Shown here piece by piece: positions 8,543 to 34,881 of a stretch of 64,000 nucleotides of DNA. This DNA comes from Nesterenkonia lacusekhoensis (GTDB lineage: Bacteria > Actinomycetota > Actinomycetes > Actinomycetales > Micrococcaceae): NCBI RefSeq assembly GCF_017876395.1, contig NZ_JAGINX010000001.1, positions 558,001-622,000 on the forward strand, read 5' to 3'. The translations under genes were made by a program, and so were the position numbers. How positions within the stretch are numbered: position 1 is the stretch's first letter; every line of letters begins with the position of its first letter. The notes under the pieces are model-generated. The model had not been told where the DNA came from, did not search any database, and saw only the letters and a program-made list of their open reading frames with translations.

Positions 8543-9631
8543 CTACTGAGCGGGGGAGCGGCGGACGATCTGCTCCATGATGGCCAACTGCGGCTGGCGG
8601 TACTTCCCGTAGTCGGGATGGCGGAAGTCGGCCACGCTGGCGGCGGGGTCGATGTCGACCACCAGGGCTCCCTCGGCTGAGTCCAGTGCGGAGACGACCA
8701 GGTCCACCCCGGTGGCCTCCAGACCTGGCAGCGCCCACATCCCGTCGATGGCGAGCTGTTTGACCTCTTCGGAGAGCTCATCGGTCACATCCACAGAGAG
8801 CGAGCCGTCCCGTGGTGCTCCCGGCACCGGGGGAAGCTCGCAGATGGACCCTGAGGCAGGGACGTAGGAGCGGGTCAGCCCCGCCTCGGTCAGCGCCTCG
8901 TCGTCGAGGTCAGGAAGCTCCGCCGTGGGCCCGAGGCGCCGGGCCAGTTCGGTCTGAGCCAGCTCATCGAGCGTCGACTCCCCGTCGCCGAGGACGTAGA
9001 AGGGGACCCGGACCAGGGCGCCCACCACCGTCTCGCCCACCACGTAGGTGCGCAGTTCCAGACCGTTGTGGGTGGCCTCCATCAGGATCGGGTGCTGGGG
9101 ATCCACGCTGTCGACGGCCTTCTTCCACGCCGTGCGCAGGTCGCCCTCAAAACGCACACCCACAGTGGTCCCCTGCGCGCCGGAGGCGCGGGAGGGCTTC
9201 ACCGTGGCCCGCCGGCCCAGCGTCTCCCAGTACCGCACTGCCGTGGAGTACTGGTTGTGCTGCAGGACTCTGCTCTGCGGGGTCGGGACCTCGGCAGCCT
9301 TCAGGTAGCGCCTGACCATCCCTGTGGAACGGCAGACGCGGTGGGCCTGATGGCTGACCAGGGAGGTCACGCCCTCGTCGACGCTGCCCACTGCCACACC
9401 GGAGTAGAAGAGGATGCGGTGGGCGTGAGTGATCTTCTTCATGTGCAGCTTGTTGCGCCGAGCCGCGCGGAAGAGCAGGTACGTATGGGCGTAGACCTGC
9501 GGCCACTCACGCAGCTCGGCGTACCGCGGCTCGATCCGCTCAGCGATGAAGCGTTCGACGGCGCCGGGGCGCTCGCCCAGCTTCACCTGGGGGCGGTGCT
9601 GCTCGGCCCCCTGAACCTCTTCCGCGGTCAT
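8543..9631 (-). CDS. ATP-grasp domain protein of the ulosonate cluster
   Basis: Start ATG 9631 gives 362 residues and lies 8 bp after the synthase stop; a longer frame to 9778 would run deep into that gene. The N-terminal third is helical. The ATP-grasp fold follows, with a lid-type helix CRSTGMVRRYLKAAEVPTP, the nucleotide-binding stretch ATVKPSRASGAQGTTVGV, and a C-terminal acidic metal segment (GVDLVVSALD, VVDIDPAAS). The pattern resembles cyanophycin-synthetase and glutathione-synthetase-type carboxylate-amine ligases. The substrate is unknown. Amide decoration of the ulosonic acid or its polymer is an inference from context only. Confidence 0.75.
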   Translation of the reverse strand: MTAEEVQGAEQHRPQVKLGERPGAVERFIAERIEPRYAELREWPQVYAHTYLLFRAARRNKLHMKKITHAHRILFYSGVAVGSVDEGVTSLVSHQAHRVCRSTGMVRRYLKAAEVPTPQSRVLQHNQYSTAVRYWETLGRRATVKPSRASGAQGTTVGVRFEGDLRTAWKKAVDSVDPQHPILMEATHNGLELRTYVVGETVVGALVRVPFYVLGDGESTLDELAQTELARRLGPTAELPDLDDEALTEAGLTRSYVPASGSICELPPVPGAPRDGSLSVDVTDELSEEVKQLAIDGMWALPGLEATGVDLVVSALDSAEGALVVDIDPAASVADFRHPDYGKYRQPQLAIMEQIVRRSPAQ

Positions 9632-9639
9632 CGGGTGTC

Positions 9640-11211
9640 TCAGTACTTGTGGTGCTCTGAGGCGGTGATCTTCTTCTCCGTGGAGCCCACGTGGATCTGA
9701 GCCTGCCGGACGTTGTCCACGTACTCCTTGAAGGCATCGGTGGTCAGATCCACGGCCACGGCGTCGAAGTGGGCCCACTCGGTGTTGCCCAGCTTCACGT
9801 GCTTCTCCACCATGCCGGCACCGGCGGCCACTGCCAGAGCCGAAGCCATCCAGCCGAAGTCGTGGGAGGAGTAGCCGGGCACGATCCGCGGACCGGGCGT
9901 GGAAGCCTGCTCCTCGGCCAGCTGGGCGTAGTGGCGGACCACGCCGATGTTGGTGTGCTCATCGGGGGTGGGGTAGGCGGAGTTGCAGTGCAGCAGGTAG
10001 AGGGTGTCCTGCTTGGTGAAGGTCTCCAGCAGCCACTGCTCGTAGTCCTGATCCGTCATGCCGGTGGAGATCACCAGGGAGCCGGTGTAGTTGTTGGCCA
10101 CGTACTCCAGGTAGTCCTTCTTCCGGGAGATCGTCGAGGGCAGCTTCACCAGCGGGATCTCCAGGTTCTCCATCATCCACTCGAAGGAGGGCTTGTCCAG
10201 CACCGAGGCGAACCACTTGATGCCCAGGTCCTTGGTGAGCTCGTCGAGGAACGTGAAGCCCTCCTTGTCCAGCTCCAGCTGGTGGCGGTAGTCGCCGAAG
10301 GTGGTGCCGAAGGGGGACTTATACGGAGCGGCGAGCTGCTCGGCGGTGTAGAAGTGCTCGACGTCGCGCTTCTGAACCTTCACCCAGTCGGCGCCGGCGG
10401 CGTGGGCGGAGCGGACCAGCTTCTCCAGCCGGTCCAGGTCGCCGAAGTGGTTGGTGGTGATCTCAGCGGTGATCTCCACGGTGGGGACTTCGAGCTCTTC
10501 GGCCTCTTCCTCCTGAGGAGCGGGCTCGGAGACCTCCACCCGGTACTTCTCGTTCAGCGCCTCAGTGGTGATGTTGGAGAACTCGTGGCTGCCCACGTGG
10601 TGGACGTCCAGGTTGGAGTCCTCCAGCACGTAGAGCGCGTTGCGCAGGATGTACTGCTGCAGCTCCACGCCGGCCTTGCGGTGGCTGGTCAGCTCGGGAG
10701 AGTACTGCGTGTTGGCCGCACGGGCATTGCCGGATGCGGGGGAGAAGTCGAAGCCGACCATGTAGACGGTCTGCGTGCGGCCCTTGGTGTCGGCGATGGT
10801 GCGCGCGACCTCCAGGGCGGTGAGGAACATGACTTCCTCGATGACGGTCTCGTCCCGGTTCTGGAAGCGGCTGAGCATGATGTCTTCCTCATCGTTGCTC
10901 AGCGGCTTATACGGCGCACGGACCACCGTGTGGCCAGGCGCGTGGAACTCGGTGGAGGTGATGTAGGCCTTGGACTGCAGACCGTCGTCCTGGAGGGAGT
11001 CGGCCACCCAGTCCTCATGGAAGATGGTGATGTCTGTGGGGTGGATGCGCTCAGCGTCGTTGATCCCGATGACCACCGAGTCCTTGAAGACCCGGCTGCT
11101 GACAGAGTCTGCGGACGGTCCCTTACCGAGGATGACGATCGTGTCGGTGTCGTACATCGACCCGGTATCGCTGGCCAGGTTTGAGATAGCTGCCGTCGTA
11201 TTGCTGGTCAT
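9640..11211 (-). CDS. Fusion: glycosyltransferase-like Rossmann domain + NeuB-type ulosonic acid synthase
   Basis: The 523-residue protein has two parts. Residues 20-215 begin TIVILGKGPSAD and contain VYMVGFDFS. This resembles the nucleotide-binding core of GT42/DUF115-type proteins (VxGxGPS, then a G-D/F-x motif). Residues 245-515 are a NeuB TIM barrel: EITTNHFGDLDRLEKLV, ADWVKVQKRD, VKLPSTISRKKDYL, GSLVISTGMT, LLHCNSAYPTP, GYSSHD, MVEKHVKLG. NeuB enzymes condense phosphoenolpyruvate with a hexose derivative to give a nonulosonic acid. The usual C-terminal antifreeze/SAF domain is absent. It overlaps the phosphatase gene by 89 bp; Met19 (11157) is an alternative start. Confidence 0.8.
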   Translation of the reverse strand: MTSNTTAAISNLASDTGSMYDTDTIVILGKGPSADSVSSRVFKDSVVIGINDAERIHPTDITIFHEDWVADSLQDDGLQSKAYITSTEFHAPGHTVVRAPYKPLSNDEEDIMLSRFQNRDETVIEEVMFLTALEVARTIADTKGRTQTVYMVGFDFSPASGNARAANTQYSPELTSHRKAGVELQQYILRNALYVLEDSNLDVHHVGSHEFSNITTEALNEKYRVEVSEPAPQEEEAEELEVPTVEITAEITTNHFGDLDRLEKLVRSAHAAGADWVKVQKRDVEHFYTAEQLAAPYKSPFGTTFGDYRHQLELDKEGFTFLDELTKDLGIKWFASVLDKPSFEWMMENLEIPLVKLPSTISRKKDYLEYVANNYTGSLVISTGMTDQDYEQWLLETFTKQDTLYLLHCNSAYPTPDEHTNIGVVRHYAQLAEEQASTPGPRIVPGYSSHDFGWMASALAVAAGAGMVEKHVKLGNTEWAHFDAVAVDLTTDAFKEYVDNVRQAQIHVGSTEKKITASEHHKY

Positions 11212-11830
11212 TCAGGTAAACCTCACAGTTGTGTTCCAGGGCGAGTTGAAGGCCCGCCAGCAGGTCCCATGAATAGGCACCGACGGGGTTGATGAACCGG
11301 GCGAAGCGTCCCGTGATGACGCCGTAGAGATTGTACACAGCGGCCCCCATGAGCCGAGCCTGAGGGGTATCGGCCAGCTGGCGAGCCAGTTCGTCGTCGA
11401 TCCCGGAGGAGAACGCGGTGATCCGGGAGGAGGCGGGGGTGAAGCTGTCACCGGTGATCAGCCGCTGTCCCAGCTGGGGCAGAGAGATCATGCTGGCCTG
11501 GTGGACCCCGTCATGCCACAGGGTCACGGCCACACCCCATTCGGGCAGGCTGGAGGCGAAGTTCTCCGTACCGTCGATGGGATCCACGACGGCGACCCAC
11601 CCCTCCAGCGAGTGGTCGGGGGAGAACTCGCCCTCCTCTCCCACGAAGGTCAGGCCTTCGAAGCGGGAGGTCAGATACTCCTCGATGCTCGTCTGCACCA
11701 GGACGTCAGCGGCGGTGACCGGGGTGTCATCGCCTTTGAGGGTGACCTCGCTGCGCAGCTGGTCCAGCCGCGGCATCAGGTCGCGGACCAGGTCGTCGAC
11801 CCCCTGTAGGGCCTGTTGGGCTTCACTCAT
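11123..11830 (-). CDS. Inositol-monophosphatase-family sugar phosphatase
   Basis: The 235-residue protein has the IMPase/CysQ metal site: TLKGDDTPVTAAD, FVGEEGE, and WVAVVDPIDGTENF. Downstream are MGAAVYNLYGVITGRF and AYSWDLLAGLQLA, the last being the W-D motif. The family removes phosphate from small sugar or nucleotide phosphates. Directly upstream of and overlapping the ulosonate synthase, it is a candidate for dephosphorylating a precursor or an ulosonate phosphate; this is inference. The C-terminus ends in HRHDRHPR and is encoded in the overlap with the next gene. Confidence 0.8.
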   Translation of the reverse strand: MSEAQQALQGVDDLVRDLMPRLDQLRSEVTLKGDDTPVTAADVLVQTSIEEYLTSRFEGLTFVGEEGEFSPDHSLEGWVAVVDPIDGTENFASSLPEWGVAVTLWHDGVHQASMISLPQLGQRLITGDSFTPASSRITAFSSGIDDELARQLADTPQARLMGAAVYNLYGVITGRFARFINPVGAYSWDLLAGLQLALEHNCEVYLNDQQYDGSYLKPGQRYRVDVRHRHDRHPR

Positions 11831-11835
11831 CGTAG

Positions 11836-11946: not shown

Positions 11947-14001
11947 ATGTGGGGAAGTATGGTATCCAAGAAGACGTCGTCCGCGAAGAAGCCCAAGGGC
12001 CTGGTGCCCACTGCGAGGAAGGCCGTCCGGCTGGCCGAGCGTCGCGCAGTCGCGGCCGCGGTCAACGCCGTCAGCCGCGTCCCCTCCCTCGGAGATCTCC
12101 CCAGTGGCGAAGCCTTCCTGGCCAAGCAGGCATCAGCCGGCAGCAGCCGCTTCATGCCGAAGGCCGAGGTCAGGATGAATCGGACCAAGCGCCCCTCGAC
12201 TGGGCGTCTTCCGCTGCTGATCATGCAGAACGCCGTCTCCGGCGAGGTGTCTCTCGCCGATGCCGCGGACCAGCAGGGGGCTGCCCACCCCAACTTCCTG
12301 GAGCGCGTGGCCTCCCGCACCGCTGGCGAGGGAAATCTCCAGACCGCGATACGTCTGAGGCGCCGGGCGCTGGAACTGGACCCGGAGAACCCTGCCCGGT
12401 ACCTGGCGTTGGCCAACACACTGGGCGCCGTATCCGAGCAGGGTGTGGTCCATGACTGGATCGTCGGCCTGGCCAAGGGGTCGGTGGCCGCCAACGGTCA
12501 GGAGGTCTTGGACCTGCTCAAGCAAGGCCATGAGCTGGCCCCCGGCAACCCCTATATGCTGCATGAATATGGCACAGCCCTGATCGGGGCCGGACAGGTG
12601 CACGAGGGCGTCCCGCTGCTTGAGGCAGCTGTGCTCAAGCAGCCCGGTGAGACGTGGTTCATGGAGCTGGCGGATATCTACCGCCGTCCGGACGTGGCCC
12701 AGTTCGAGAAGGCTATGACCTTCTACGAGCGGGTCTTTAAGAAGAATCCCAAGAACACCAAGGCCCTCTCTGGGATCATCAACGCCGGAACCCGCGGCCC
12801 GATGGACTGGGCACGGATCTGGCGCAGCGTGCGCAAGCTGGAGACTCGGAAGAAGACGACGGCGACCCCGTACAACAATGAGGACGTCCGGGATCAGCTG
12901 GATCAGCTCTTCTGGACCCAGGAGAACCCCACACAGGAGCAGGTCGAAGCACTGGTGGCGGGGTTGAGGCGTGAGGCCAATATGGACAGCACGCTCCACC
13001 CGATGGCGCTAAACCTGGTGATCACTCGTCTGCAGTTCGCTCGTTTCTTCTCCGCAGGCTTTGACCTGCGTGAAGCTGCGGCCAGAGGCCGCACCCACAC
13101 TCTGCGCAACTCGGCCATCACCACGGCCCACCAATTGCGGAACCTGATGAAGGCCCATACCTATCTCGAGGACGCGGAGTCCGTTGCCTCCCTGGCGGAT
13201 CCGCGGTTCTGGGATTCTTCGGATCAGATGGAACACCTCCAGCTCGAGAAGCTGCAGGCGGATGCCGAGCTGATGAGCGGTCGCCCTGAGGCTTATATCG
13301 AGTACTCCCGCAAGGCCCGCAAGCGCACGCCGCTGGCCGCCGATGACACGATGGAGAAGCTGGTCAAGGGCCGGCGCGTGGCCCTGGTCGGCCCTGCAGA
13401 GACCGGCGATCGGCTCGGTAGCATCATCGACGAATATGACGTGGTGGTCCGTCCGCGCTACCAGCCCGAGTTCATCGCGGAGAATCGGGACGCCCAGGGC
13501 AGCCGCACCGACATCACCTATTACTCGGGCCAGGACCTGACCAACCTGTTCGAGACGATCTCCGGGGCCGCAGAGGCTGGGGATATCAAAGTGGTCAACG
13601 CCCGTCCCTTCAGCCATGCGGCTCATGCCCACCGGAACCTGGACTGGCTGCGCTTCTACCGGCAGGACTTCTCCCTGTGCTTCCACGGCGGCTCTCTGGG
13701 GATCCAGCGGATGGCCTATGATCTGTTGCAGTTCCAGCCGGAGGAGATCTGTGTGTTCAACTCGGACCTCTACACCGGCAATTCCATGTTCACCACCGGG
13801 TGGCGCGAGGGCAACACCTTCGGCCCGTACTCGCACATCAATGACATCGTGGTCTCCCATGATGTGAAGTCCGAGTTCAGGTTCATGAAGGCGCTGATGG
13901 CCACCGGTGTTGTCACCGCCCAGGGCCGTGCCGCGGAGGTGCTCGAGCAGACTCCGGACGAGTACGTCCGCGCCGTTGAGGACGCCGGCGTCCTCTGCTG
14001 A
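11947..14001 (+). CDS. Helical-repeat protein with C-terminal GT29 (sialyltransferase)-like domain, copy 1
   Basis: The 684-residue product has a Lys/Arg-rich start, TPR-like helical repeats (ALELDPENPARYLALA, KNPKNTKALSGI) and a C-terminal glycosyltransferase-like domain. The latter starts at about residue 478 with VALVGPAETGDRLG, then IDEYDVVVRPRY and GSRTDITYYSG. This matches the eukaryotic GT29 sialylmotif L layout (VVG...G..ID.HDxVxR...G..T). GIQRMAYDLLQF corresponds to motif S, and His638 in HDVKSE fits the HX4E of motif VS. Proposed role: transfer of a CMP-activated ulosonic acid. ATG 11959 is an alternative start; neither has a clear ribosome site. Confidence 0.7.
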   Translation: MWGSMVSKKTSSAKKPKGLVPTARKAVRLAERRAVAAAVNAVSRVPSLGDLPSGEAFLAKQASAGSSRFMPKAEVRMNRTKRPSTGRLPLLIMQNAVSGEVSLADAADQQGAAHPNFLERVASRTAGEGNLQTAIRLRRRALELDPENPARYLALANTLGAVSEQGVVHDWIVGLAKGSVAANGQEVLDLLKQGHELAPGNPYMLHEYGTALIGAGQVHEGVPLLEAAVLKQPGETWFMELADIYRRPDVAQFEKAMTFYERVFKKNPKNTKALSGIINAGTRGPMDWARIWRSVRKLETRKKTTATPYNNEDVRDQLDQLFWTQENPTQEQVEALVAGLRREANMDSTLHPMALNLVITRLQFARFFSAGFDLREAAARGRTHTLRNSAITTAHQLRNLMKAHTYLEDAESVASLADPRFWDSSDQMEHLQLEKLQADAELMSGRPEAYIEYSRKARKRTPLAADDTMEKLVKGRRVALVGPAETGDRLGSIIDEYDVVVRPRYQPEFIAENRDAQGSRTDITYYSGQDLTNLFETISGAAEAGDIKVVNARPFSHAAHAHRNLDWLRFYRQDFSLCFHGGSLGIQRMAYDLLQFQPEEICVFNSDLYTGNSMFTTGWREGNTFGPYSHINDIVVSHDVKSEFRFMKALMATGVVTAQGRAAEVLEQTPDEYVRAVEDAGVLC

Positions 14002-14054: not shown

Positions 14055-15572
14055 ATGGCATTCAGAGGTCATCGGGTCATCGCAATGGTGCCCAGCCGCC
14101 TTGGATCGACGCGCTTGGAGCGCAAAGCACTGGCAGATATCTGTGGTCTGCCCATGGTGATCCACGTACTGCAGAGAGTGCAGATGTCGCCCATCGTGGA
14201 TGAGGTCTACATCGCCACTGACTCCGAGGAGATCAAGGAGGCGGTCGAGCGCTACGGCGGCCGAGCCATCATGACCGGCACACATCACACCACGGGGATC
14301 GAGCGGATCGCCGAGGCATCGGCGGACATGGACTATGACGTCATCTGCCTGATCAACGGAGATGAGCCGGCGCTGAACCCGGACCATATCCAAGCCAGCG
14401 TCGAAGCGCTGCTGGATTCGGAGGCCCCGACGTCGCTGCTGGCCAGCGAGTCTGCCAAGGTGAACTCGCCCTCTGACTTCAAGGTGGTCACCAACCGGGC
14501 GGGGGAGGCCATGTACTTCTCGCGCGAGGACATCCCTTCGCCGTCGCGTTCCGGGGTGGCGAACTTCCTGAAGGCCTACCATCTGATCTCCTTCCGCAAG
14601 GGTGCTTTGGACACCTACATGTCGTTGGACAAGACTCCGATGGAAGCGATCGAGGGGCATGACCACCTGCGGTTCCTGGAGAACGGGCATAAGGTCCAGA
14701 TCGGCGTGGTCGAGCATGATTCCTTCTCCGTGGACACACCGGAAAACTTGGCTGAGATGGTCGAACAGATGAAGGAGGACCCACGGTTCAGCTCGTATAG
14801 GCATTTGGCTTCTGAAGACGCGTCAGAGCCGGTGTCGTCCGCGAAGGCCACCTGGAACAGCTCGCCTGTGGTCGCAGTGGTGCCGTGTCGAGCAGGAAGC
14901 GAACGCGTCAAGGACAAGAACACCAGGCCTTTCGCAGGGTTCGAAGGGGGCCTGTTGGAGCTCAAGCTCAAGCAGCTGGCAAACGTTGCAGAGATCGACA
15001 AGATCGTGGTCTCCACCAATGACCCGTCTGTCGTGGAGATCACGGAGGAGTTCAGGAGGACTTCTGAGAAGCCCATAGTGATCAACGAACGTCCTGATGA
15101 GTTGGCCTCTTCCAGCACTCCGATGAGCAGATTCATCCAGTATGCGGCGGAACTCGAAGAAGACGGGACCATGCTGATGACCCATGTGACTCACCCCTTG
15201 GTGACATCTGAGACCTTCTCTGAGTTGATCGCGGCCTGGCGTGAGGCCGAGGAGCAGGGCTACGACAGCCTGATCACCGCAACCCGTCTGCACTCCTTCC
15301 TATGGGATGAGAAGGCCCAAGCCTTCAACTACGACGATTCCGTGGAGAGATGGCCGCGTAGCCAGGACATTGATCCGCTGTTCGAGATCAACCACGCGGC
15401 CTACCTGATGCCTTTCGTGAGGATGCGACAGGTCGGAGATCGTGTGGGGACCAACCCACGGATCTACGAAATGGAACAGGACGTGGCTATGGACATCGAT
15501 TGGAAGCACCAGTTCGATCTCCTCGAAGACATCGTCACCGCGAAGGTGAGCCGAGGGATCACTCTGACCTGA
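14055..15572 (+). CDS. Bifunctional CMP-ulosonate synthetase: KdsB-like + NeuA-like cytidylyltransferase fusion
   Basis: Residues 1-245 match KdsB (CMP-Kdo synthetase): VIAMVPSRLGSTRLERKALA, HTTGIERIAEA and INGDEPALNPDHI, then MEAIEGHDHLRFLENGH. Residues 270-505 match NeuA (CMP-N-acylneuraminate synthetase): VVAVVPCRAGSERVKDKNTR, a T-H-P-L segment and the late EMEQDVAMDIDWKHQFDL with the acidic metal residues. Both families make CMP-activated 3-deoxy-2-ulosonic acids from CTP. The linker around 246-270 is Ser/Ala/Glu-rich. Both halves keep their nucleotide-binding loop, so both may be active. It lies 53 bp after the GT29-like gene. Confidence 0.85.
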   Translation: MAFRGHRVIAMVPSRLGSTRLERKALADICGLPMVIHVLQRVQMSPIVDEVYIATDSEEIKEAVERYGGRAIMTGTHHTTGIERIAEASADMDYDVICLINGDEPALNPDHIQASVEALLDSEAPTSLLASESAKVNSPSDFKVVTNRAGEAMYFSREDIPSPSRSGVANFLKAYHLISFRKGALDTYMSLDKTPMEAIEGHDHLRFLENGHKVQIGVVEHDSFSVDTPENLAEMVEQMKEDPRFSSYRHLASEDASEPVSSAKATWNSSPVVAVVPCRAGSERVKDKNTRPFAGFEGGLLELKLKQLANVAEIDKIVVSTNDPSVVEITEEFRRTSEKPIVINERPDELASSSTPMSRFIQYAAELEEDGTMLMTHVTHPLVTSETFSELIAAWREAEEQGYDSLITATRLHSFLWDEKAQAFNYDDSVERWPRSQDIDPLFEINHAAYLMPFVRMRQVGDRVGTNPRIYEMEQDVAMDIDWKHQFDLLEDIVTAKVSRGITLT

Positions 15573-15675: not shown

Positions 15676-17655
15676 GTGATTGAGAGTTCTATCGACAGGC
15701 TGACCAAGCTGGCTGGGCCTTCTGCCATCAAGGCTATGTCTAAGTCCGACGCTGGACGCCGTGATTTGATGCGCCGGGCCGCGTTCGGAAGCCAGGACTT
15801 TGTGTCCCGGACGGAGACGCTGGTCACCGGGCGGAAGTCCCGCGGGCAGAGCAGAGCGGCGAAGTACGCCCAGACGATTCTGGAGAATGTCCCGGGCGGG
15901 GAGATCCGGTTTGCGCTCGCCGCGGCTGAGGAAGAACTGGCCACGGCGGGGCTGTTGGAACGGGTCGCTTCTCGTACGCTGAAGACCGCAAAACCCCGTG
16001 ACATTATCGATCTGCGTCGTCGAGCAGTGGATCTCGATCCTCGGCGGGCGCACCGATATGTGGCGCTGGCCGCAGCACTCGGAAGCGAGACACAGTCTCG
16101 GATTGTTCATGGGGCTGCCGTGGGCCTGCATCGGGGCCAGGAGACTCCGCATGCAGACGAGATCATCGAGCTTCTGAAGAGTGCACAGGCGCTTGCGCCG
16201 TCCAATGCTGTGATCGCTTTCGAACTGGGCCAGCGGCTTCTGGAACGAGGAGATGCGGAGGAGGGTCTCGCTCAGTTGGAGAAGGCTGCTCTCAAGCATC
16301 CAGATGAGCAGCGGCTCATGGCCCTGGCGCAGGCTTATCGCAGACCCGACATCGCGCAATTTTCACAGGCGCTGGAGAGCTACGAACACGCCTATTCCCT
16401 GAATCCTAAGAACCAGAAAGCTTTGGGGGGAGTGGTGCACTCCGGCGCACGAGGGCCGATGGACTGGCCGCGAGTTTGGCGCACCGTCCATCGGATCGAA
16501 TCTAAGCGCCAACACTCACCCCTTCGGACGGAGAGCGTCGCTGAGGGCATGGACTCCCTCTTCTCGTCGAGGCAGGAAGTCGAGGCTGAGACGGTCACCG
16601 ACCTCCTGTCCGAATTGGATGAGTGCCGAGCTGAGGGCAAAGAGCTGAATCCCCAGACAGTGGGACTGCTCGTTCTGCGGGTCCAGTTTCTCGGTCACTT
16701 CGCGGCGGGTTTCCGTCTCAGAACCCGTAACGCCGAACGGAGGGCTCAGCGTCTCAGGAGAAGCGGAGTCCGGGATCTCGGCGGATTGCGGCAGATGATG
16801 CAGGCGTTGGTCTACCTGGACAACGCGGAGACCGCGTCCCGTCTCTCGCAGGACGTCAAGTACTGGGCCCAGAACACTGGGGAGCAGCGGATGGCCGTGG
16901 CCAAGCTGCACGCGGATGCAGAGCTGATGTTGGGCAACCCGGAGCCATACTTCAAGTACTCGGTCGACGCTCGTAAGGACTTCTACCTTCCTGCTGAGCG
17001 AAAAATGGTGAACCTGATCAAGAAGAAGCGGGTGGCCATCGTCGGCCCCGCTGCCACCGGTGAGTCGCTCGGCTCTGAGATCGACGGGTACGACGTGGTG
17101 GTTCGGCCGAACTTCAACCCAGAATTTGTGGCGGCGCACCCTGAATCGATGGGCAGCCGGACAGACATCGCGTACTACTCAGGTCAGGACATGACCACGC
17201 TCATCGACGACGTCGAGAGCCTCATCGAGAACTCTGATGTACAGCTGATCAATACACGATCATTCAGCTACCACACGCACCACCGTCGAAACCTGCCGTG
17301 GCTGCGGTTTGCCCGGCATGACTGGTCCTTGTCGTACCACGGATCTCCGTTGGGGATTCAGCGAATGATCTATGATCTGCTTCAGTTCCGTCCCGAAGAG
17401 ATCGCTATCTTCAACTCCGACTTCTATACGGGTTCGGGAGAGTTCGCCGAAGGTTACCGGAAGAAGCGAAGCTTCGCGCCTGGGTCATTCATGAACGACC
17501 TGGTGGTGGTCCACGATCTTCTCACTGACTTCCGGTTCACCCAGGCAATGTTGAAGACGGGACGGGTGACTGCCCAAGGACGGGCGGCTGAAGTGCTTTC
17601 CCGGGATCCGTTTGACTATCTTCGGGATGTTGAGCAAGCCGGAGTACTTAGATGA
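15676..17655 (+). CDS. Helical-repeat protein with C-terminal GT29-like domain, copy 2
   Basis: The 659-residue paralogue starts at GTG 15676 behind GAAAGGG. TPR-like repeats (VDLDPRRAHRYVALAAAL, YSLNPKNQKALGG) occupy about residues 90-420. The GT29-like domain begins near residue 453 with VAIVGPAATGESLG, then IDGYDVVVRPNF and GSRTDIAYYSGQD. Motif-S-like LGIQRMIYDLLQF follows, and His613 of HDLLTD is the HX4(E/D) position. Flanking sequence GPMDWPRVWR is shared with copies 1 and 3. It probably transfers a CMP-activated sugar acid; acceptor unknown. Codon use is slightly lower in GC than copies 4 and 5. Confidence 0.7.
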   Translation: MIESSIDRLTKLAGPSAIKAMSKSDAGRRDLMRRAAFGSQDFVSRTETLVTGRKSRGQSRAAKYAQTILENVPGGEIRFALAAAEEELATAGLLERVASRTLKTAKPRDIIDLRRRAVDLDPRRAHRYVALAAALGSETQSRIVHGAAVGLHRGQETPHADEIIELLKSAQALAPSNAVIAFELGQRLLERGDAEEGLAQLEKAALKHPDEQRLMALAQAYRRPDIAQFSQALESYEHAYSLNPKNQKALGGVVHSGARGPMDWPRVWRTVHRIESKRQHSPLRTESVAEGMDSLFSSRQEVEAETVTDLLSELDECRAEGKELNPQTVGLLVLRVQFLGHFAAGFRLRTRNAERRAQRLRRSGVRDLGGLRQMMQALVYLDNAETASRLSQDVKYWAQNTGEQRMAVAKLHADAELMLGNPEPYFKYSVDARKDFYLPAERKMVNLIKKKRVAIVGPAATGESLGSEIDGYDVVVRPNFNPEFVAAHPESMGSRTDIAYYSGQDMTTLIDDVESLIENSDVQLINTRSFSYHTHHRRNLPWLRFARHDWSLSYHGSPLGIQRMIYDLLQFRPEEIAIFNSDFYTGSGEFAEGYRKKRSFAPGSFMNDLVVVHDLLTDFRFTQAMLKTGRVTAQGRAAEVLSRDPFDYLRDVEQAGVLR

Positions 17656-17763: not shown

Positions 17764-19206
17764 GTGGAAACTGACAATAATGAGTTCGCAGAGGGCATCT
17801 TTCGGGACTTGCAGGATTTGTTGAATGAGATCCATGCCGAGCAGGATGTCGACCTTGAGAAACTTCAAGAGATTCTGTCCCATTTTCCGGAAGTGGCAAG
17901 AGAGTACTATGAGCTTCTGACTGAAATAGAGATCGCCGCGCGTAGGGCTGTTTCGCGCGAGCGGATGAGGGAGATCTATCCTGTGATCACCGAAGCGCTC
18001 GGGCGTGATGGCCTCGGTCATGGTGTGATGTACCGCGCAAAGAAGCATGGGGCTTCGTTAGAAGGCGTGGCATCTTTCCGCTCCTCGGTCTCGCTCATGG
18101 CGCGTCGTAGGCAGCTCAGCAGACACTTCGGCCCAGAGACTTTTGTCACTGATAAGTTGCGTGGGGAGAAATTCGCGAGGAACCTCGGGTTGCCGACGGC
18201 GTTGGCGTATGACGAGGTGTTTACAGCTGAAACCCTTCCGATTGTCCCGGGTACGGTAATTAAGCCGCGGGGAGAGTTGGGGTCACGTGGAGTTTTCATT
18301 TTGGGAGAAGACTCCAGTATCTATGATGTCCAGAAATCGCAGTACGTCGGTGACGAAATGCAGGTGCGCGAAATTATCTCGGCGCTGGTCACTGGTGAGC
18401 CCTCGGAGAAGCTAAGGGGCCGAGGGCGTGTAGGCCGTGACGAGTGGATCGTCGAACGCGCCATCTTCGACTCCCAGGATGAGAGTCTCCCTGCGCGGGA
18501 CCTGAAGTTCTTCGTGTTTTACGGGAAGGTCGCTGCGATCCTTGAGATCATGCGGTTCCCTGAGAAAAAGTACTGTTGGTGGGACGCGTATGGAAACCAA
18601 GTGAAGACCGGCATCTACGACGAATACGACTGGGTAGGAGAGGGGGTCAGCGAAGCTGAGATTGCCGTCGCTTCACGTGTCTCTTCTGAGATCCCTGGGC
18701 CGTTTATGAGACTCGACTTCCTGCGTGGGCGCGACGGTCTTATTCTTGGTGAATTCAGTGGAGGGGTGGGAGAATATCATAAATTTAACACTCACTGGGA
18801 TCATCATCTTGGAGAACTCTTCTTGGATGCGGAGGGGCGTTTGACGTCAGATCTGCTGACTGGCAAGAAATTCGAAGATTATAGCGAGTTCTCTGACGCT
18901 CACTACCGGCATTACCCAGCTATTCATGACCAGCGATATATTCTGTCCGTGAAATCGGATCTCCTTTCAGCGGCACGAGACGTTGAAGATTTCTGTCGAG
19001 CCAATGCGATTCGAGGATACGTCTCACGTTTCTGTGCGGGGCAGGACGAACTTGAAATTGTGGCGCGCACCGGTTCGCGTCGGCTGGAACGACTCGAAAA
19101 ACACTTTCAGGAGCTGGAGTTGGCTGGGAATGTAGCTAAGGTGAAGAAGGTGCCTTATTACGGGGCCTTCCCTGGGCAGTTGCTCTTTCAAAACTCTGTG
19201 AGGTAG
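17764..19206 (+). CDS. TupA-like ATP-grasp enzyme
   Basis: The 480-residue protein (GTG start) has an acidic helical N-terminus (1-100) and an ATP-grasp domain. Visible are KLRGEKFARNLGLPTALAYD, VIKPRGELGSRGVFIL for nucleotide binding, and the metal-site stretch FMRLDFLRGRDGLILGEFSG followed by GGVGEYHKFNTHWDHHLG. The last block is the hallmark of TupA-like ATP-grasp proteins, named after a Bacillus teichuronopeptide gene and common in polysaccharide loci. It probably joins an amino acid or amine to a carboxylate on the polymer (inference). Third codon positions are visibly richer in A/T than flanking genes, suggesting separate acquisition. Confidence 0.75.
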   Translation: METDNNEFAEGIFRDLQDLLNEIHAEQDVDLEKLQEILSHFPEVAREYYELLTEIEIAARRAVSRERMREIYPVITEALGRDGLGHGVMYRAKKHGASLEGVASFRSSVSLMARRRQLSRHFGPETFVTDKLRGEKFARNLGLPTALAYDEVFTAETLPIVPGTVIKPRGELGSRGVFILGEDSSIYDVQKSQYVGDEMQVREIISALVTGEPSEKLRGRGRVGRDEWIVERAIFDSQDESLPARDLKFFVFYGKVAAILEIMRFPEKKYCWWDAYGNQVKTGIYDEYDWVGEGVSEAEIAVASRVSSEIPGPFMRLDFLRGRDGLILGEFSGGVGEYHKFNTHWDHHLGELFLDAEGRLTSDLLTGKKFEDYSEFSDAHYRHYPAIHDQRYILSVKSDLLSAARDVEDFCRANAIRGYVSRFCAGQDELEIVARTGSRRLERLEKHFQELELAGNVAKVKKVPYYGAFPGQLLFQNSVR

Positions 19207-19278
19207 CTGGAGCTAAGGAATCTGGTTGTGCGGACTAGCGACCGCGTGACTGTGAGTAGTCGATCCGGAGGAGGCGCG

Positions 19279-24781: not shown

Positions 24782-26242
24782 GGGCAGTCATGAGTGCAGG
24801 GCCCCACGTCACCCAGGACTGGATCGTCGGTCTGACCGTCACCTCCGAATCTGCTGCGGAGGACTCTGCGCAGGCGCCCAGCATCCAGCATCTGGAGGAA
24901 GCTTCCGCCGCCGACCCTGCAGACCTGGAGGCGCTGAAGGCCCTCGCGGAGGCCTACCGCATCTCAGGAGACTTCGACGCCGCCCTGGATACCTGGGAGA
25001 AGGTGCTGACGGTCAACCCCACCTACCAACGGGGACTGTCCCGGCTGGTCGCCGTCGGAGCCCGCGGAAGCATGGACTGGCCACGCATCTGGCGGTCCGT
25101 CCGCGAACTGGAGCCGCCTGAAGAAGGGCAGCTCGCCCTACCGGAACCCCACACTGCGCCGACGGCTGGATGCCCTCTTCGCCGGTGACCACCTCACCGG
25201 GCCGCAGCCCAGCGCCGAAGAGGCTGCCAGCATCGTGGAGACGCTCGAGGAGATGGGCCAGAACGGCCGGCATCTCAAACCCACCACCGTGACTCTGGTG
25301 CTGATGCGCCTGCAGTTCGCCGGACACTTCTCCCTCGGCTTCCGGCTGCGCATGCTCAGCCAGCAGCGGCGCATCGCCCAGAACTTCGTGACACCGCCGG
25401 GGGAGAACCTCAGCGCGCTGCGCAACCTGTTCAAAGCGCTGGTCTACACCGGCAGCCCGGAGACCGCCGCCCAGCTGAGCCGCATGCAGCACTGGGCCAA
25501 AGACGATTTCCAGGCCCAGCAGCGGCTCCAGAAGATGCACGCCGATGCCCTGCTGATGACCGGCCGTGCGGAGCCCTATTGCGCCTACGCCGAGACGGTC
25601 CGCGAGCAGGCCCCGCTTCCCGGCGAGGGCCGCATGGCTGAGCTGGTCACTGGAAATCGCGTGGCCGTCGTCGGGCCCGCCGAGACCGGCGACCGTCTGG
25701 GCGAGCTGATCGACTCCTATGACGTGGTGGTCCGCCCGCGCTACCAGCCGGAGTTCCTCGCTGCCCATCCCGAGACCATGGGTAGCCGCACCGACATCGC
25801 CTACTACTCCGGCTTCGACATGGATGAGTTCCTCACTCAGGCAGAGGAGGCCGTGGACCGTGGGGATCTTCAGCTGGTCAATGCCCGGCCCTTCACCCAC
25901 GCCACCCATGCCCATCTCGGACACCGGTGGTTGCGGTTCTACCGGCATGACTTCTCGCTCTGCTACTCAGGCGCTCAGCTGGGCATCCAGCGTATGGTCT
26001 ACGATCTGCTGCAGTTCGAGCCTTCAGAGATCTGCATCTTCAACTCGGACTTTTACACCGGAGCCCGGATGTTCAGCGAGGGCTGGCGTCCTGTGGACCG
26101 GTTCGGACCGGGCTCGCACATCAATGACATCGTGGCGGCCCACGACATCAAGGCCGACTTCGAATTCACTCAAGCACTGATGAAGACGGGAATTGGGTTG
26201 CCCCCGGAAGTAGGTCCACGCGTTATGCGGGCCGCGGTTTCT

Positions 26243-27082
26243 TCAATGGGTACAGATTTCAGCATACTCAGCCGGGCTGCGGTACCCGAGCGCTGAGTGG
26301 CGCCGGATGGTGTTGTATTCCTTCTTCCAATCCGTGATGATCACCCGAGCATGGGTCAAAGACCAGAAGCTGGTGATGTTCAGGCACTCATCCCGGATCC
26401 TGCTGTTGAAGGACTCCACGTACCCATTGCGCCACGGCGCACCCGGCGGGATGTAGTGGATCCCCGTGACCTCCCCGGCCCAGTCGGCCATCGCGTGGCA
26501 GATCAGCTCCGGGCCGTTGTCACACCGTAGGACCTCTGGAAGCCCCCGGTCAGCGGCGATAGCGTCGAGGTGGGCGGTGAGGTCATCACCGGTGATGCTG
26601 CGGGCCACGATCCCGCCCAGGCATTCGCGAGTGTGCTCATCGACGATCGAGGCGATCTTGATCGCCCGGCCCGTCTCATCGGCGTCGAATTGGAAGTCCA
26701 CCGCCCACACCACATTCGGCGCGTCCGCCTGCGGGGCTTCCGCGGTGGAGGACCCCACGCGTTTGCGTCGACGTCTCACCGGAACCCGCAGGCCCTCTTC
26801 ACGCCAGAGCCGCTGGACCTTCTTATGGTTGACCGCCCAGCCCTCGGCTCGGGCATCATGATAGGCCCGCCGGTAGCCCCAGCGCGGGTGGTCCTTTGCA
26901 TAAGCCCGTAGCCAGGCCCGCAGCCCAGCATCAGGATCACCAGCGTTCTCAGACTTCAGTGCCCGGCGGAAGGCGGATCGGGCAAGCCCGGCCAGCGCGG
27001 TGGCTCTGCGTTCACTGATGCCCATGGTGGCCATCAGGTGTCGCGCAGCTGCTCGGCGCCGGTCCGGGCTTAGAAGTTTCCC
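26243..27082 (-). CDS. IS3-family transposase OrfB (DDE integrase part)
   Basis: This frame is entered by -1 slippage from orfA. The product has an HTH-like N-terminus ([21 protein letters not shown]), [18 protein letters not shown], and the rve integrase core with the DDE acids in [21 protein letters not shown] and [17 protein letters not shown]. It ends with [19 protein letters not shown], typical of IS3 relatives. All catalytic residues are present and no internal stop is seen, so the element may still move. Upstream of 27082 the open frame is only a shadow of orfA. Confidence 0.9.
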
Positions 27083-27354: not shown

Positions 27355-27647
27355 GGTCACACCAGTTTTCCTGCCCGGAGCGTCGGGCGCTAGTGCGACT
27401 CTCATAACTCGTGGACCGAAATTAGGGGGTCATGCCAGAATCGTCACCGCACAGGGCAAGGCTGCGGAAGTCTTGGCCATGACACCAAGCGAGTACATAA
27501 GTGCGGTGGAAGAGGCTGGAGTCCTCAGGTAGCTGCACTATGTGAAAAACATAGGGTGAGTTGCGTCTAAACCTTCGGAAAACTGCCCCGGGGTTATGGC
27601 ATATTGGGGAAGCAGGTGTACTTCCTCACTCCTTGAAGGCGGTTTTC

Positions 27648-28364: not shown

Positions 28365-28433
28365 GGGTTGTCCAACGGGTTCTGAACCGTCCTGGGTCTT
28401 GTTCCGATCTGTTGAGCAGAGAGGATAGGGACT

Positions 28434-30823: not shown

Positions 30824-31178
30824 CAGTATGTGGCGATCGCCTATACCGACAAGCTCGCTGATCACGGCATCCGCCCTTCGGTGGGCACTGTTGGGGATTC
30901 CTATGACAATGCTCTGGCCGAGAGCGTCAATGGGCTGTATAAGACCGAGCTGATCTACTCCCAGCCGGCGTGGGCTTCGCTGACGGAGGTGGAGTTCGCC
31001 ACGATGAACTGGGTCCACTGGTGGAACACTGCCAGGCTGCACGAGAACCTCGGGCAGCAGACCCCGGCAGAAGTTGAGAGCGCCTACTATGAACAGCGGA
31101 CCGAGTCCGCACCAAAATCTCGGAACTAAACCCAGGACGGTTCAGTTCATGAGTTGCTCCAGTGCGCAGTAAACTCAG

Positions 31179-33194
31179 GTGGCGATGCTGAAACCACTCG
31201 TCCTCGGGGCGGAGGCCGGCCGCCGAGCCATGGGCCTCGCCGCCAAAGTCCCTGGAGCCGACCTCGCCGCAGCCCGCGCCGTGGTCGCCAGCGGTCGCCT
31301 CGTCCCCACGACCACGGAGTCCGCGCTGACCCCCAGCCGCGCCAGGCTGCGCAGCCTGCACGAACAGGCCGCCACAGTGCTCTTCGAGGCCAATCCCACC
31401 GGGTCGGCCAAACTCTTGGAGAGTCTGGACCTGGAGGCCATCGACGACGCCGGCTACCTGGAGCGGCTGGCCCAGCGCTTCCTGAAGGTCAAGGAGTATG
31501 AGGCCGCTCTGCAGATGCGGCTGCGCGCCAAAGACTTGGAGCCGCAGAACCCGGTGCGCTGGGTGGCCTTGGCCCGCTCCTACCAACGGGCGGCCAAGGG
31601 CGGAATGGTCCGCGACTCCGTGGGCGGTCTGGTCGAAGGGCCGGTGGCCGACGGCGAGAAGGCCCGCGAGGCGCTGCAGCGAGCCGCCGAACTGGCCCCC
31701 GAGGATCCCGGCATCAGCTATCAGCTGGGACGCTTCGAGTTCGACCACGGCCACGTGGAGGCGGGCCTGGACCGCCTCCAGGAGGTCACTGAGAAGCATC
31801 CGGCCTACCGCTGGCTGCTCGACTACGCCCACCGGGCCCGCCGCCCGCACGTGCTGCAGATGGAGCGCGCCCAGAGAGCCTACGAGCAGGCCCTGGCGCT
31901 GCGGCCCACCTCATCGGTGGCGATGCGCGGAATCCTGGCCACCGGAACACGCGCCGCCCAGGACTGGGCCGGCATGTGGGAGAGCGCCCTGGTCTTCGAG
32001 GCAAGCAAGAAGCGCGGATACGCCCGACGCCGGGAGCTCCTCGACCAGCTCACCCCTCTGGTCACCGCCCCGCATGTGAGTGCCGAGCAGGCCCAGGTGA
32101 TCCTCGCCCTGCTTCAGGACGCTGAGGCTCGCGGCATCCGGCTTCGCTGGGCGACCGTCTCCCTGATCAGCTATCGGCTGCAGTTCGCCGGGCAGCTGCG
32201 CACCGGCTTCGCACTGCGCCGCAGCCTGGCCGAGCGTACTCTGAGATGGTTGGGCGACTCCTCCGGCGGCCACGCGGGGCACCGGCAGAAGCTGCTGGCC
32301 GCACTGAGCTACCTGGGCCGCACCCAGGAGGCTCTGGAGCTGATCGACCCGCTGCCCTGGCAGCCCAGCACCGCACGCGGCCGGCTGCGTCTGGAGAAGC
32401 TGCGCGCCGACACCCGCCTGCTCCACGGGGACGTCCAGCCCTATCTGGACTACTCCGCTCAGGTGCGCGAGGCCACCCCGCTGCCGGGCGAGGAGAAGAT
32501 GGCCGAGCTGATCAGCGGAAAGCGTGTAGCCGTCGTCGGGCCGGCGGAGACCAGCGATGAGCTCGGTGAGCTGATCGACTCCTACGACGTGGTGATCCGC
32601 ACGCGCTTCCAGGCCGGATTCGTGGCGGAGAACGCCCGGCGGATCGGCAGCCGCACCGACATCACCTACTACGCCGGACGCGACCAGGGCCTGCTGGCGG
32701 CCGAAGGCGCCGTCGCCGCCGAATCCGGCGACCTGCAGATGGTGGTCGCCCGTCCGCTGAGCATGGACTCGGTGCGCAGCCTGCTGGGCGGGGAGACTCC
32801 GGAGTGGCTGCGCGTGGGCCGTCACGACTTCGCGGTGTGCTTCCACGGCGCCCCGCTGGGCGTGCCGCGGATCATCTACGACGTCCTGCAGTTCGACCCC
32901 GCCGAGATCGGGCTCTTCCACGCGGACTTCTATGCCGGGGAGCAGGCCTACTCCCAGGGCTACTGGGAGGCCCAGCACGTGGGCTTCGGGCCGCATTCGA
33001 AGATGAACGACGTCATCACCGCCCACGACCTCGACTCCGACTTCCAGCTGATGCAGGCCTTCGCCGCCACCGGACGGCTCACCGCCCACGGGGCCTCGGC
33101 CGAGGTGATGGCGCTGGAGAAGGACGAATACCTGCGCCGGGTGGAAGCTGCGCCGATCTTCCCGCGCCCGGCCGCCGAGCAGGAGAAGGCCTGA
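31179..33194 (+). CDS. Helical-repeat protein with C-terminal GT29-like domain, copy 4
   Basis: The 671-residue paralogue starts at GTG 31179 or ATG 31185; no good ribosome site is visible and the IS3 end lies 34 bp upstream. TPR-like repeats (AKDLEPQNPVRWVALARSY, ALALRPTSSVAMRGI) fill residues 90-420. The GT29-like domain begins near residue 450 with VAVVGPAETSDELG, then IDSYDVVIRTRF and GSRTDITYYAG. LGVPRIIYDVLQF and His616 of HDLDSD (HX4D) follow. The NARPFxHxxHAH element of copies 1-3 is replaced by ARPLSMDSVRSL. Codons are strongly GC-biased. Copy 5 starts 4 bp after its stop. Confidence 0.7.
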   Translation: MAMLKPLVLGAEAGRRAMGLAAKVPGADLAAARAVVASGRLVPTTTESALTPSRARLRSLHEQAATVLFEANPTGSAKLLESLDLEAIDDAGYLERLAQRFLKVKEYEAALQMRLRAKDLEPQNPVRWVALARSYQRAAKGGMVRDSVGGLVEGPVADGEKAREALQRAAELAPEDPGISYQLGRFEFDHGHVEAGLDRLQEVTEKHPAYRWLLDYAHRARRPHVLQMERAQRAYEQALALRPTSSVAMRGILATGTRAAQDWAGMWESALVFEASKKRGYARRRELLDQLTPLVTAPHVSAEQAQVILALLQDAEARGIRLRWATVSLISYRLQFAGQLRTGFALRRSLAERTLRWLGDSSGGHAGHRQKLLAALSYLGRTQEALELIDPLPWQPSTARGRLRLEKLRADTRLLHGDVQPYLDYSAQVREATPLPGEEKMAELISGKRVAVVGPAETSDELGELIDSYDVVIRTRFQAGFVAENARRIGSRTDITYYAGRDQGLLAAEGAVAAESGDLQMVVARPLSMDSVRSLLGGETPEWLRVGRHDFAVCFHGAPLGVPRIIYDVLQFDPAEIGLFHADFYAGEQAYSQGYWEAQHVGFGPHSKMNDVITAHDLDSDFQLMQAFAATGRLTAHGASAEVMALEKDEYLRRVEAAPIFPRPAAEQEKA

Positions 33195-33198
33195 GCCC

Positions 33199-34881
33199 AT
33201 GGCAGTGAGCCTCTACGGGCTGCGGTACAAGATCGCCGCTGCGGCTGTGGTCAAGGCTGCGGCCCGGCGCGGGGCACGCCTGCCCGGCGCTCGCAGTGCG
33301 GTGACGGCCGCGGCGCAGCGGCTCCAGCCCGAGGGCGAGGCCACCGGCTCCTATCGCGGGCTGGCCGCCGGTCTGCTGCAGGAGGCGCTGCGCGGTGAGG
33401 CCGGGGGAGAGGCACTGAACTACGACGCCGTCGCCGGCCTGGTCCCTGCCCCGGAGCCGGAGCGTCCGCCCCAGGTGGAGACGCTGCGCGCCGCCGCCGA
33501 GCGCACCGGGGCCGCAGCCGATCTCATCGCTCTGGGTGCGGCCTGCCGCAAGTCCTCCATCGCCGACTTCGAGGCGTCCGCAGACGCCTATGAGCAGGCC
33601 TTCGCCGCCAACCCCAAAGACCTGCGGGCCGTCGAGGGAGTGCTGGTCTCCGGGGCACGCTCGCACTTCGACTGGCCGCGCATCTGGGCGGTGGCGGGCA
33701 CGCTGAAGCCCGCCCGCGGCCCCCTGGCCGCCTCCACCTCCTTCTGGGATGCGGTGGACCCGCTGTTCGTCCAGACTCCCGACGCCGCGGTTCTGGCCCG
33801 CGCGCAGGAGGCGCTGAGCCGGCACGAGGAGCACATCGGTTCCCTGCATCAGCTGCTGATCGAGACCATCGCCGAACGCATCCAGTTCCTCGGCGGCTTC
33901 AGCACTGGGGCGCGGCTGCGCGGTCTCATGGCGCAGAACCGGGTGCAGGAGCTGCGCAGGATCCCCTTGGAATCCGCCCTGTGGCTCAAACACCTGCTCG
34001 GGGCCTACGCCTGGTTGGAGGACGAGCAGGCGCTGCGGCGCACTGCCTCCCGCGCCCCGGTGGACACCTCGGATCCGGTGGTGGCCCGGCAGGTGGAGAA
34101 GCTGCGCGCCGACGTCGCGCTCTTCGGCGGGGACCCTGCCCCGCTGCGCGACCACGCTGCCCAACGGGCTGAGGAGGCCGCCGCCTGGGGTGCGGCCCTG
34201 CCCGGTGAGCAGCGCATGGCCGAGCTGGTGGCGGGCAGGCGCGTGGCCGTCGTCGGGCCTGCCGCCGCAGATCAGGAGCTCGGGGAACTGATCGACTCCT
34301 ATGACGTGGTGGTCCGCACCAACCTGCGCAGGCCTCTGGATCCCGGGCGCGGCCCTCAGATCGGCACGCGCACCGATATCTCCTACTACGCGGCGCTGGA
34401 CCTGATCCGTGACTACGACCAGGTCGCCCAGACCGTGGAGGCCGAGCAGGTGCAGCTGGCGGTGACCCGGCCGCACTGCCTGCCGGCTTTCGAGGACCCG
34501 CCGAGCTGGCTGCGATTCGCGCCCTTCGAGTTCGGACTCTACTTCCGGGGCGCTCCGCTGGGGATCCAGCGGATCCTCTATGACCTGCTGCAGCACGGAC
34601 CCGCCGAGATCGGACTCTTCCACGCCGACTTCTACGCGGGGGAGAAGGCCCTGGCCCCGGGCTACCGTGACGATGCTCTGCAGTTCGGCCCGCACTCCCA
34701 GGCCAACGACCCGATCGTCATGCACGATCTCAGCTTCGAATTCCGGTTCACTCAGCGCCTGGTCCGCGCCGGCCTGGTCACCCCGCACGGCACAGCCGCC
34801 GAGGTGCTGGGGCTCAGCGCCGAACAGTACTTCCAGCGCCTGGAGGACCGCAGCCCGCTGGCCGGGGGCAGGAACGGATGA
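33199..34881 (+). CDS. Shorter GT29-like paralogue, copy 5
   Basis: At 560 residues this is the shortest intact copy. The N-terminal helical region is reduced (AFAANPKDLRAVEGV marks one TPR-like repeat). The GT29-like domain starts near residue 349 with VAVVGPAAADQELG, then IDSYDVVVRTNLRR and GTRTDISYYAALD. LGIQRILYDLLQH and His509 of HDLSFE (HX4E) follow. FHADFYAGE is shared with copy 4, so copies 4 and 5 form a subgroup. Its stop region lies just before the nuclease-like gene, with an alternative upstream start of that gene overlapping it. Confidence 0.7.
   Translation: MAVSLYGLRYKIAAAAVVKAAARRGARLPGARSAVTAAAQRLQPEGEATGSYRGLAAGLLQEALRGEAGGEALNYDAVAGLVPAPEPERPPQVETLRAAAERTGAAADLIALGAACRKSSIADFEASADAYEQAFAANPKDLRAVEGVLVSGARSHFDWPRIWAVAGTLKPARGPLAASTSFWDAVDPLFVQTPDAAVLARAQEALSRHEEHIGSLHQLLIETIAERIQFLGGFSTGARLRGLMAQNRVQELRRIPLESALWLKHLLGAYAWLEDEQALRRTASRAPVDTSDPVVARQVEKLRADVALFGGDPAPLRDHAAQRAEEAAAWGAALPGEQRMAELVAGRRVAVVGPAAADQELGELIDSYDVVVRTNLRRPLDPGRGPQIGTRTDISYYAALDLIRDYDQVAQTVEAEQVQLAVTRPHCLPAFEDPPSWLRFAPFEFGLYFRGAPLGIQRILYDLLQHGPAEIGLFHADFYAGEKALAPGYRDDALQFGPHSQANDPIVMHDLSFEFRFTQRLVRAGLVTPHGTAAEVLGLSAEQYFQRLEDRSPLAGGRNG

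Follow-up and report, generated by a model that had tools for sequence, protein, structure and literature searches.

The window analysed here, a stretch of 64,000 nucleotides of a Nesterenkonia lacusekhoensis genome (C1:558001-622000; 2.74 Mb in 2 contigs), contains a gene island whose probable product is an acidic sugar similar to sialic acid; relatives of the animal sialyltransferases would attach it to a surface molecule. These relatives form one protein family, termed TPR-GT29-like here, and their genes lie together with those for a NeuB fusion protein and for a double cytidylyltransferase. It is proposed that they act as cytidine monophosphate (CMP)-nonulosonate transferases for a surface polymer, within an island that makes and attaches a nonulosonic acid, and a probability of about 60% was assigned to this reading. 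It is likely that the locus is a nonulosonate island with GT29-fold proteins, and a wall polymer is a plausible product. Gene content, domain families, a modelled fold, linkage and conservation were determined directly.

The family is represented by five proteins in the window, all encoded on the plus strand, with 32-50% identity to the first one: copies a (11947..14001), b (15676..17655), c (25235..26296), d (31179..33194) and e (33199..34881), of which d and e form a genus-wide pair. An initial inspection of the letters (the sequence-only reading) had counted five GT29-like proteins, and five copies of one family were indeed found, although copy c is broken and all of them stay below the cut-off of the GT29 family PF00777. 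Copy a was assigned by a Pfam match to TPR, by alignments and by structure models. Copy c was recognized from alignments and the family tree; its 5′ part is read in a different frame, and approximately 30 codons of its 3′ end are found 1.2 kb off, past an insertion sequence. The front half of copy e aligns with those of the other copies, and no TPR match was obtained for it in Pfam. The TPR-GT29-like proteins look soluble. Eleven named relatives of copy a were found, all from Nesterenkonia, the nearest from N. cremea with 90% identity.

The C-terminal domain was modelled alone, because the 50 Foldseek matches listed for the full-length model (25 rows, mean pLDDT 90.6, pTM 0.85) were TPR proteins; the TPR half of that model resembles OGT and SPINDLY. 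The domain model was based on a 21-row alignment (mean pLDDT 84.3, pTM 0.86), and in a Foldseek comparison with the PDB all 12 matches at E<=0.001 were GT29 chains from three enzymes, ST8SiaIII, ST6GalNAc2 and ST3Gal1, with 5bo6 as the best match (2.5e-6). They were followed by HPPK (8sd5, 1.3e-3) and by the GT42 enzyme CstII (5.9e-3). The structure-based search that had been suggested earlier thus placed the C-terminal domains in the GT29 fold, and at the level of this modelled fold the assignment holds. A profile of 19 domains found seven distinct GT29 sequences in the PDB (2wnb, 2wml, 4mps, 5bo6, 5bo8, 6qvs and 4js1) with E values of 0.0029-0.046. Using hhalign, the family was aligned with two actinobacterial GT29 domains that exceed the PF00777 cut-off, L117 from genome G609 and L118 from G539, with a probability of 96.6 and an E value of 6e-10. 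By eye, the front part of L118 is TPR-like, and L117 runs on into an apparent other glycosyltransferase. A His of the type found in the VS motif is present in 21/21 rows of the alignment and is followed five residues later by an acidic residue in all of them (Glu in 14, Asp in 7), and each fixed position of a GxRTDI stretch is kept in 20 or 21 of the 21 rows.

The linkage of the family to NeuB and CMP-sugar synthetase genes is strong. Within the genus, 16 of 23 genomes carry the island, and in all 16 a PF02348 gene lies no further than 10 kb from a family gene. The NeuB gene is on the same contig as the family gene, within 35 kb, in 11 of them; in the remaining five, which are draft assemblies (G165, G209, G228, G245 and G283), it is on another contig. 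In most islands that could be mapped as a whole, the NeuB fusion is found at one end and the cytidylyltransferase together with d and e at the other, separated by a long middle stretch with few matches to genes of the window. In G775, a genome from another family of the same order that was found via its NeuB fusion, a single run comprises IMPase, the NeuB fusion, an unassigned protein, a KdsB-like protein and a TPR-GT29 protein. The KdsB-like gene of G775 has 28% identity to that of the window, and by eye the preceding open reading frame (ORF) resembles a second such gene. The window counterpart of the unassigned protein (19228..20433, plus strand, 44% identity) matched no Pfam family, and its earlier designation as methyltransferase-like was not confirmed. 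Three further genomes, G406, G609 and G539, were found via a GT29-like gene and have NeuB-like and NeuA-like genes with 25-32% identity within 10 kb. The ulosonic-acid island of the sequence-only reading is thereby supported in part, by this positional tie in the genus and in four other actinobacterial genomes.

The synthesis genes themselves could be assigned largely as first proposed. The NeuB fusion (9640..11211, minus strand) consists of an N-terminal domain of residues ~1-240 and a NeuB-type ulosonate synthase domain of residues ~241-523, which matched PF03102 with 137.9 bits against a cut-off of 22.1 (E 5.1e-40). NeuB-family chains were also found in the PDB, with PseI 8h2c as the best match (3.6e-17). 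The His of an S-x-H-D segment and that of an E-K-H segment both align with His residues of PseI 8h2c, and we take them to be the two metal-binding His of NeuB. A Mn-binding His pair is described for NeuB in the part of PMC7591256 used here. The fusion has no Pfam match to a SAF (antifreeze-like) domain, and its NeuB domain stops at residue 513 of 523. For the 240-residue N-terminal domain, neither Pfam nor the PDB, searched by sequence and by profile, contained a convincing match. Its sequence is conserved, with LGKGPS and GFDF invariant in 11/11 rows. From reading the sequence it had been considered a GT42- or DUF115-like Rossmann domain; this idea was abandoned when Pfam, PDB sequence and profile searches and hhalign against the GT29-like family yielded nothing convincing. 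The full-length fusion is present in other members of the genus and in G775, and in the order it is complete in 3 of 297 genomes (G000, G012 and G775). In two genomes (G290:C14:17920-21123 and G012:C18:25468-27548) the island contains a stand-alone NeuB gene in addition to the fusion, with a cytidylyltransferase match close by, and in G290 with a weak Epimerase_2 match too, as if it were a second, ordinary nonulosonate set.

The IMPase-family phosphatase (11123..11830, minus strand; PF00459, 2.6e-21) is a candidate ulosonate-phosphate phosphatase, and it adjoins the NeuB fusion in G261, G199, G253, G066, G269 and G775. The double cytidylyltransferase (14055..15572, plus strand) has two CTP_transf_3 stretches (2.2e-55), and the PDB matches agree with a KdsB-like first domain (1gq9, 1.6e-38) and a NeuA-like second domain (9t4z, 9.5e-15); the protein also exceeds the cut-off of NCBIfam NF003952 (3-deoxy-manno-octulosonate cytidylyltransferase). 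Two ATP-grasp enzymes had been claimed for the island, and only one of them, the TupA-like protein (17764..19206, plus strand; PF14305, 2.7e-35), was clearly recovered. For the ATP-grasp-like ligase (8543..9640, minus strand) no Pfam family was found at E<=0.1, and all NCBIfam matches were below their cut-offs, the best one, cyanophycin synthetase (4.4e-24), far below. By eye, its ORF as first listed probably begins 46 codons too early, and the likely ATG at 9640 overlaps the stop codon of NeuB. Twelve of the 15 other mapped islands of the genus contain a relative of this gene.

The identity of the sugar can be narrowed down by the genes that are missing. KdsA (TIGR01362) was found in 0/27 genomes at E<=0.001, while 9 of 14 controls matched, 4 of them over the cut-off, and synthesis of Kdo (3-deoxy-manno-octulosonic acid) via the KdsA route was rejected on this ground. 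Epimerase_2 has no match in 7 of the 16 island genomes (G012, G209, G218, G228, G237, G245 and G283), and the matches in G290 are below the cut-off. The genome of the window has one Epimerase_2 gene, which lies outside the window and scores like those present in all 7 island-less genomes. NanE exceeds the cut-off in 3 of the 16 island genomes, clearly in G165 and marginally in G209 and G245, and has no match in the genome of the window. Thus neither enzyme was found in five of the 16 (G012, G218, G228, G237 and G283), or in six if the sub-cut-off G290 is dropped. PseB/C/G/H and LegB/C/G/H were not seen among the ORFs scanned over 8.5-37.5 kb, for which no dedicated search was made. The missing KdsA, the five genomes devoid of recognizable epimerases that make N-acetylmannosamine (ManNAc) and the NeuB protein devoid of SAF favour a sugar made without ManNAc, and as judged from these gene inventories, Kdn (ketodeoxynononic acid) or another sugar without an N-acetyl group is the likeliest candidate. 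The KdsB-like domain and the missing IMPase in several islands leave room for a sugar other than the Kdn type. From the earlier list of Kdn, Kdo or sialic acids, Kdo has become unlikely, and N-acetylneuraminic acid (Neu5Ac) is doubtful in several relatives, where the epimerases were not found.

The two halves of the cytidylyltransferase raise the question of whether two ulosonic acids are used, with copies a and b served by the KdsB-like domain and copies d and e by the NeuA-like domain. This would be a variant of the proposed explanation and is not exclusive with it. Among the mapped islands, a KdsB-like domain with 85-93% identity is restricted to those with copy a (the window, G269, G237 and G290), and the remaining islands contain either a NeuA-like gene or a CTP1-type gene that is distant (27-28%). 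The lack of KdsA speaks against it, and so does the single NeuB match in the genome of the window, as one synthase would have to serve both acids. On balance the variant appears rather unlikely.

Several observations weigh against the assignment of CMP-nonulosonate transferases for a surface polymer. In the fold search, the TM-scores normalized by query length were 0.42-0.49 and the root-mean-square deviations 6.0-8.7 Å for the best 12 matches, and unrelated folds were mixed in from rank 18. Two ABC-transporter chains (0.0015) outranked GT29 when the profile was run against the PDB, and their single-stretch values were 1.8 or worse in the alignments shown. PF00777 scored 19.4 bits for copy e, 14.9 for b and 14.7 for d against a cut-off of 23, and no match was listed for copies a and c. 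Of two Asn residues that contact the CMP phosphate in human ST3Gal1, the equivalent of N147 in motif L is Pro in 21/21 rows and that of N170 is mostly Arg (17 rows), otherwise Asn (3) or Gly (1). NeuB and the family occur together in 16 of the 23 genus genomes, and NeuB in 0/7 of the others; this requires just two changes on a one-gene tree (GuaA), which are too few, so that this co-occurrence is not a statistical test and the position of the genes says more. PF02348 matches occur in 20 of the 23 genus genomes, including 4 of the 7 without the island; those in the island-less genomes are weak (6.6e-5 to 7.2e-6) and lie in ORFs of more than 500 residues, and such ORFs also occur elsewhere in island genomes. 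Any NeuB-type match was found in 94 of the 297 genomes of the order and is therefore not rare, IMPase was not found in several mapped islands, and the scan of 20 ORFs over 8.5-37.5 kb revealed no polymer exporter.

In human ST3Gal1, hydrogen bonds to the CMP phosphate are formed by N147 and N170, and kcat/KM falls about 17-fold in the N147S and about 9-fold in the N170A variant; the first position is Ser in most ST3Gal5 and ST6Gal1 enzymes, according to the portion of PMC6884586 drawn upon here. Hence not all GT29 enzymes have the first motif-L Asn. The family has not retained the P-T-S/T-G element found in motif S of L117 and L118, and its aligned stretch is mostly G-x-x-L/M/Q-G. The VS-type His is the sole His among the invariant columns, so that none corresponds to the motif-III His. 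Most of the 21 rows are paralogues and orthologues from a single genus. Because of the PF00777 scores below the cut-off and the exchange of the motif-L Asn for Pro, the family is classified here as a divergent sister of GT29, not as GT29 proper; its mode of action may still be that of GT29. The earlier claim that a wall polymer is made from CMP-ulosonate donors by bacterial GT29-like enzymes is thereby upheld for the GT29-type fold and weakened at the level of family membership and of the donor site. The same Pro and the lost motif-III His would also fit a domain that uses a different donor, or one that has lost catalysis and serves as a scaffold while other enzymes of the island carry out the transfer. 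The full conservation of the VS-type His and the later acidic residue, the retained GxRTDI stretch and a CMP-sugar synthetase gene near the family in 16/16 island genomes argue against this, and it is considered improbable.

In the pathway that we infer as a whole, with its reactions, sugar, acceptor and wall location, the NeuB fusion would condense phosphoenolpyruvate with a sugar or sugar phosphate, and IMPase, or another phosphatase where IMPase is missing, would remove the phosphate from any 9-phosphate product. The CMP-sugar would then be formed by the NeuA-like domain, the KdsB-like domain or both, and from it the TPR-GT29-like proteins would transfer the sugar, in the cytoplasm, to a surface glycopolymer under construction. 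Building or decorating this glycopolymer may involve the pyruvyl-transferase, GT8 and ATP-grasp enzymes, and the nearby LCP ligase could anchor it to the wall. Alternatively, the TPR half might bind a protein acceptor, as in FlmG and OGT, and the C-terminal half add a nonulosonic acid to it. The resemblance of the TPR half to OGT and SPINDLY would suit such a role. However, the island carries polysaccharide-type genes, and the middle stretches of the other islands, between conserved ends, match few genes of the window; polymer loci often have a variable stretch between conserved ends. FlmG of Caulobacter, whose genome also encodes a NeuB enzyme, likewise combines a TPR half with a sugar-transferase half, and its flagellin-binding TPR domain and pseudaminic-acid-adding domain had made it a precedent; its transferase half, which acts on flagellins, is of the GT-B type and not GT29-like (part of PMC7591256). 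A role in protein glycosylation is considered improbable. Flagellin as the acceptor was rejected for the genome of the window, which has no match to PF00669, the only acceptor family searched for, with matches in 4 of the 16 island genomes.

The system proposed here, CMP-nonulosonate transfer to a surface polymer, has several partial counterparts in the literature, which are cited from parts of the respective papers. With the GT29 sialyltransferases the family of the window shares the modelled fold, the motif-L region and the VS-type His, and it differs from them in the scores below the cut-off, the replaced donor Asn, the TPR front half, the Gram-positive host and the presence of several copies. 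Bacterial GT29 proteins were reported in 2018 from several proteobacteria, mostly alphaproteobacteria (PMC5811610), and a joined GT29-GT107 protein is encoded by a capsule gene of E. coli K6 (PMC13171606). Kdn-teichulosonic acids have been described for Streptomyces (PMC11481543, PMC13011467), and a wall polymer with pyruvylated Kdn is known from Promicromonospora citrea (PMC6801904). The Streptomyces coelicolor locus SCO4873-SCO4882 and the Promicromonospora polymer have the actinobacterial host in common with the window, and there Kdn is part of the wall; in the window NeuB-type, pyruvyl-transferase and LCP genes occur together, and the polymer is predicted from these genes. In the KL1/KL2 capsule loci of Serratia marcescens, as far as the source was used, NeuB is likewise fused to an extra domain beside NeuA, and strains with this fusion make Kdn and Neu5Ac; the extra domain there is a sugar phosphate isomerase/epimerase, whereas that of the window is N-terminal and has no convincing match.

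Among the matches listed for GT29, the Nesterenkonia wall and nonulosonic acids, no publication on the TPR-GT29-like family and none naming a transferase for the ulosonic acid step of Gram-positive teichulosonic acids was found, and to our knowledge there is no such named transferase. If the proposal is true, the island would point to enzymes that might account for the synthesis of such polymers in these bacteria. It provides a short list of transferase candidates and, with G775, a short cassette. The GT29 fold, for which the bacterial proteins reported so far had been mainly proteobacterial (PMC5811610), moreover gains a sister group.

The distribution of the family was determined in 295 sampled family-level genomes, 23 of the same genus and 272 others. 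A comparison across Micrococcaceae had been proposed earlier, and it revealed that the locus is not widespread: outside of the 16 genus genomes, the family was found in only 1 of the 272, as a weak partial match (7.3e-4). In a phylum-wide spread of 396 genomes 3 matched, the window's own included, and PF00777 was over the cut-off in 2. In the family tree the e-type, d-type and a/b/c-type sequences are set apart, and the sequence from G775 stands beside the a/b/c-type. It is tempting to regard the whole as a new family of soluble TPR-GT29 proteins with a rebuilt CMP-donor site, which are paired and act with the NeuB fusion in making a wall polymer of the Kdn type in Nesterenkonia and some further actinobacteria, and which would be the transferases of Gram-positive teichulosonic acids, but in this specific form the idea is tentative and would have to be called somewhat doubtful.

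The island is divided between the two strands. The minus strand encodes, in this order, IMPase, the NeuB fusion and the ATP-grasp-like protein. The plus strand begins with copy a, the double cytidylyltransferase, copy b, the TupA-like ATP-grasp protein and the unassigned protein, and continues with a first polysaccharide pyruvyl transferase family protein (20960..22249; PF04230, 2e-13), a GT8 family glycosyltransferase (22477..23445; PF01501, 5.1e-08), a second pyruvyl transferase family protein (23438..24781), the broken copy c, insertion sequences and copies d and e. The second pyruvyl transferase matched PF04230 (6.9e-13) on a longer ORF, 23327-24781, and by eye a start at 23438 is likely; both pyruvyl transferases and the GT8 enzyme are thus in agreement with the sequence-only reading. 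At 14-22 kb the G+C content amounts to 57-60%, compared with 61-72% in the remaining 2-kb steps of the window.

Beyond copy e follow a GmrSD_C/HNH-type protein, found in the Pfam scan (34878-36698, plus strand), and a histidine-phosphatase family protein (36718..37473, plus strand; PF00300, 4.7e-39). Of the 15 other genus islands mapped, 12 have the histidine-phosphatase gene close to d and e. The GmrSD_C/HNH protein is odd company for sugar enzymes, and 7 of these 15 islands (G188, G269, G237, G245, G283, G165 and G209) have homologues of it close to the pair. The ORFs further downstream were scanned too, and the expected TagD/TagF/LCP set was recovered over 37499-42528 on both strands: two PF01467 cytidylyltransferases that are TagD-type by context (37499-38005 and 39520-40050, minus strand), TagF (40175-41272, minus strand) and the LCP ligase (41437-42528, plus strand), with an LRV protein on the plus strand within 37499..42528.

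The stretch 26243-31145 consists of insertion sequences and one ORF of 267 residues. An IS3-type transposase at 26243-27217 splits copy c, and an element at 28382-31145 with inverted ends of 33 nt contains another one at 29371-30824 with inverted ends of 27 nt. At 46638-50738 a protein of 1366 residues with matches to DUF4011, AAA and MTES_1575 nuclease is encoded, possibly a defence gene. A minus-strand cluster at 54209-63932, which comprises APH, an ABC exporter, two GT4-type proteins, a GT28_C protein and an AMP-binding enzyme, is perhaps a second glycolipid or polymer locus.

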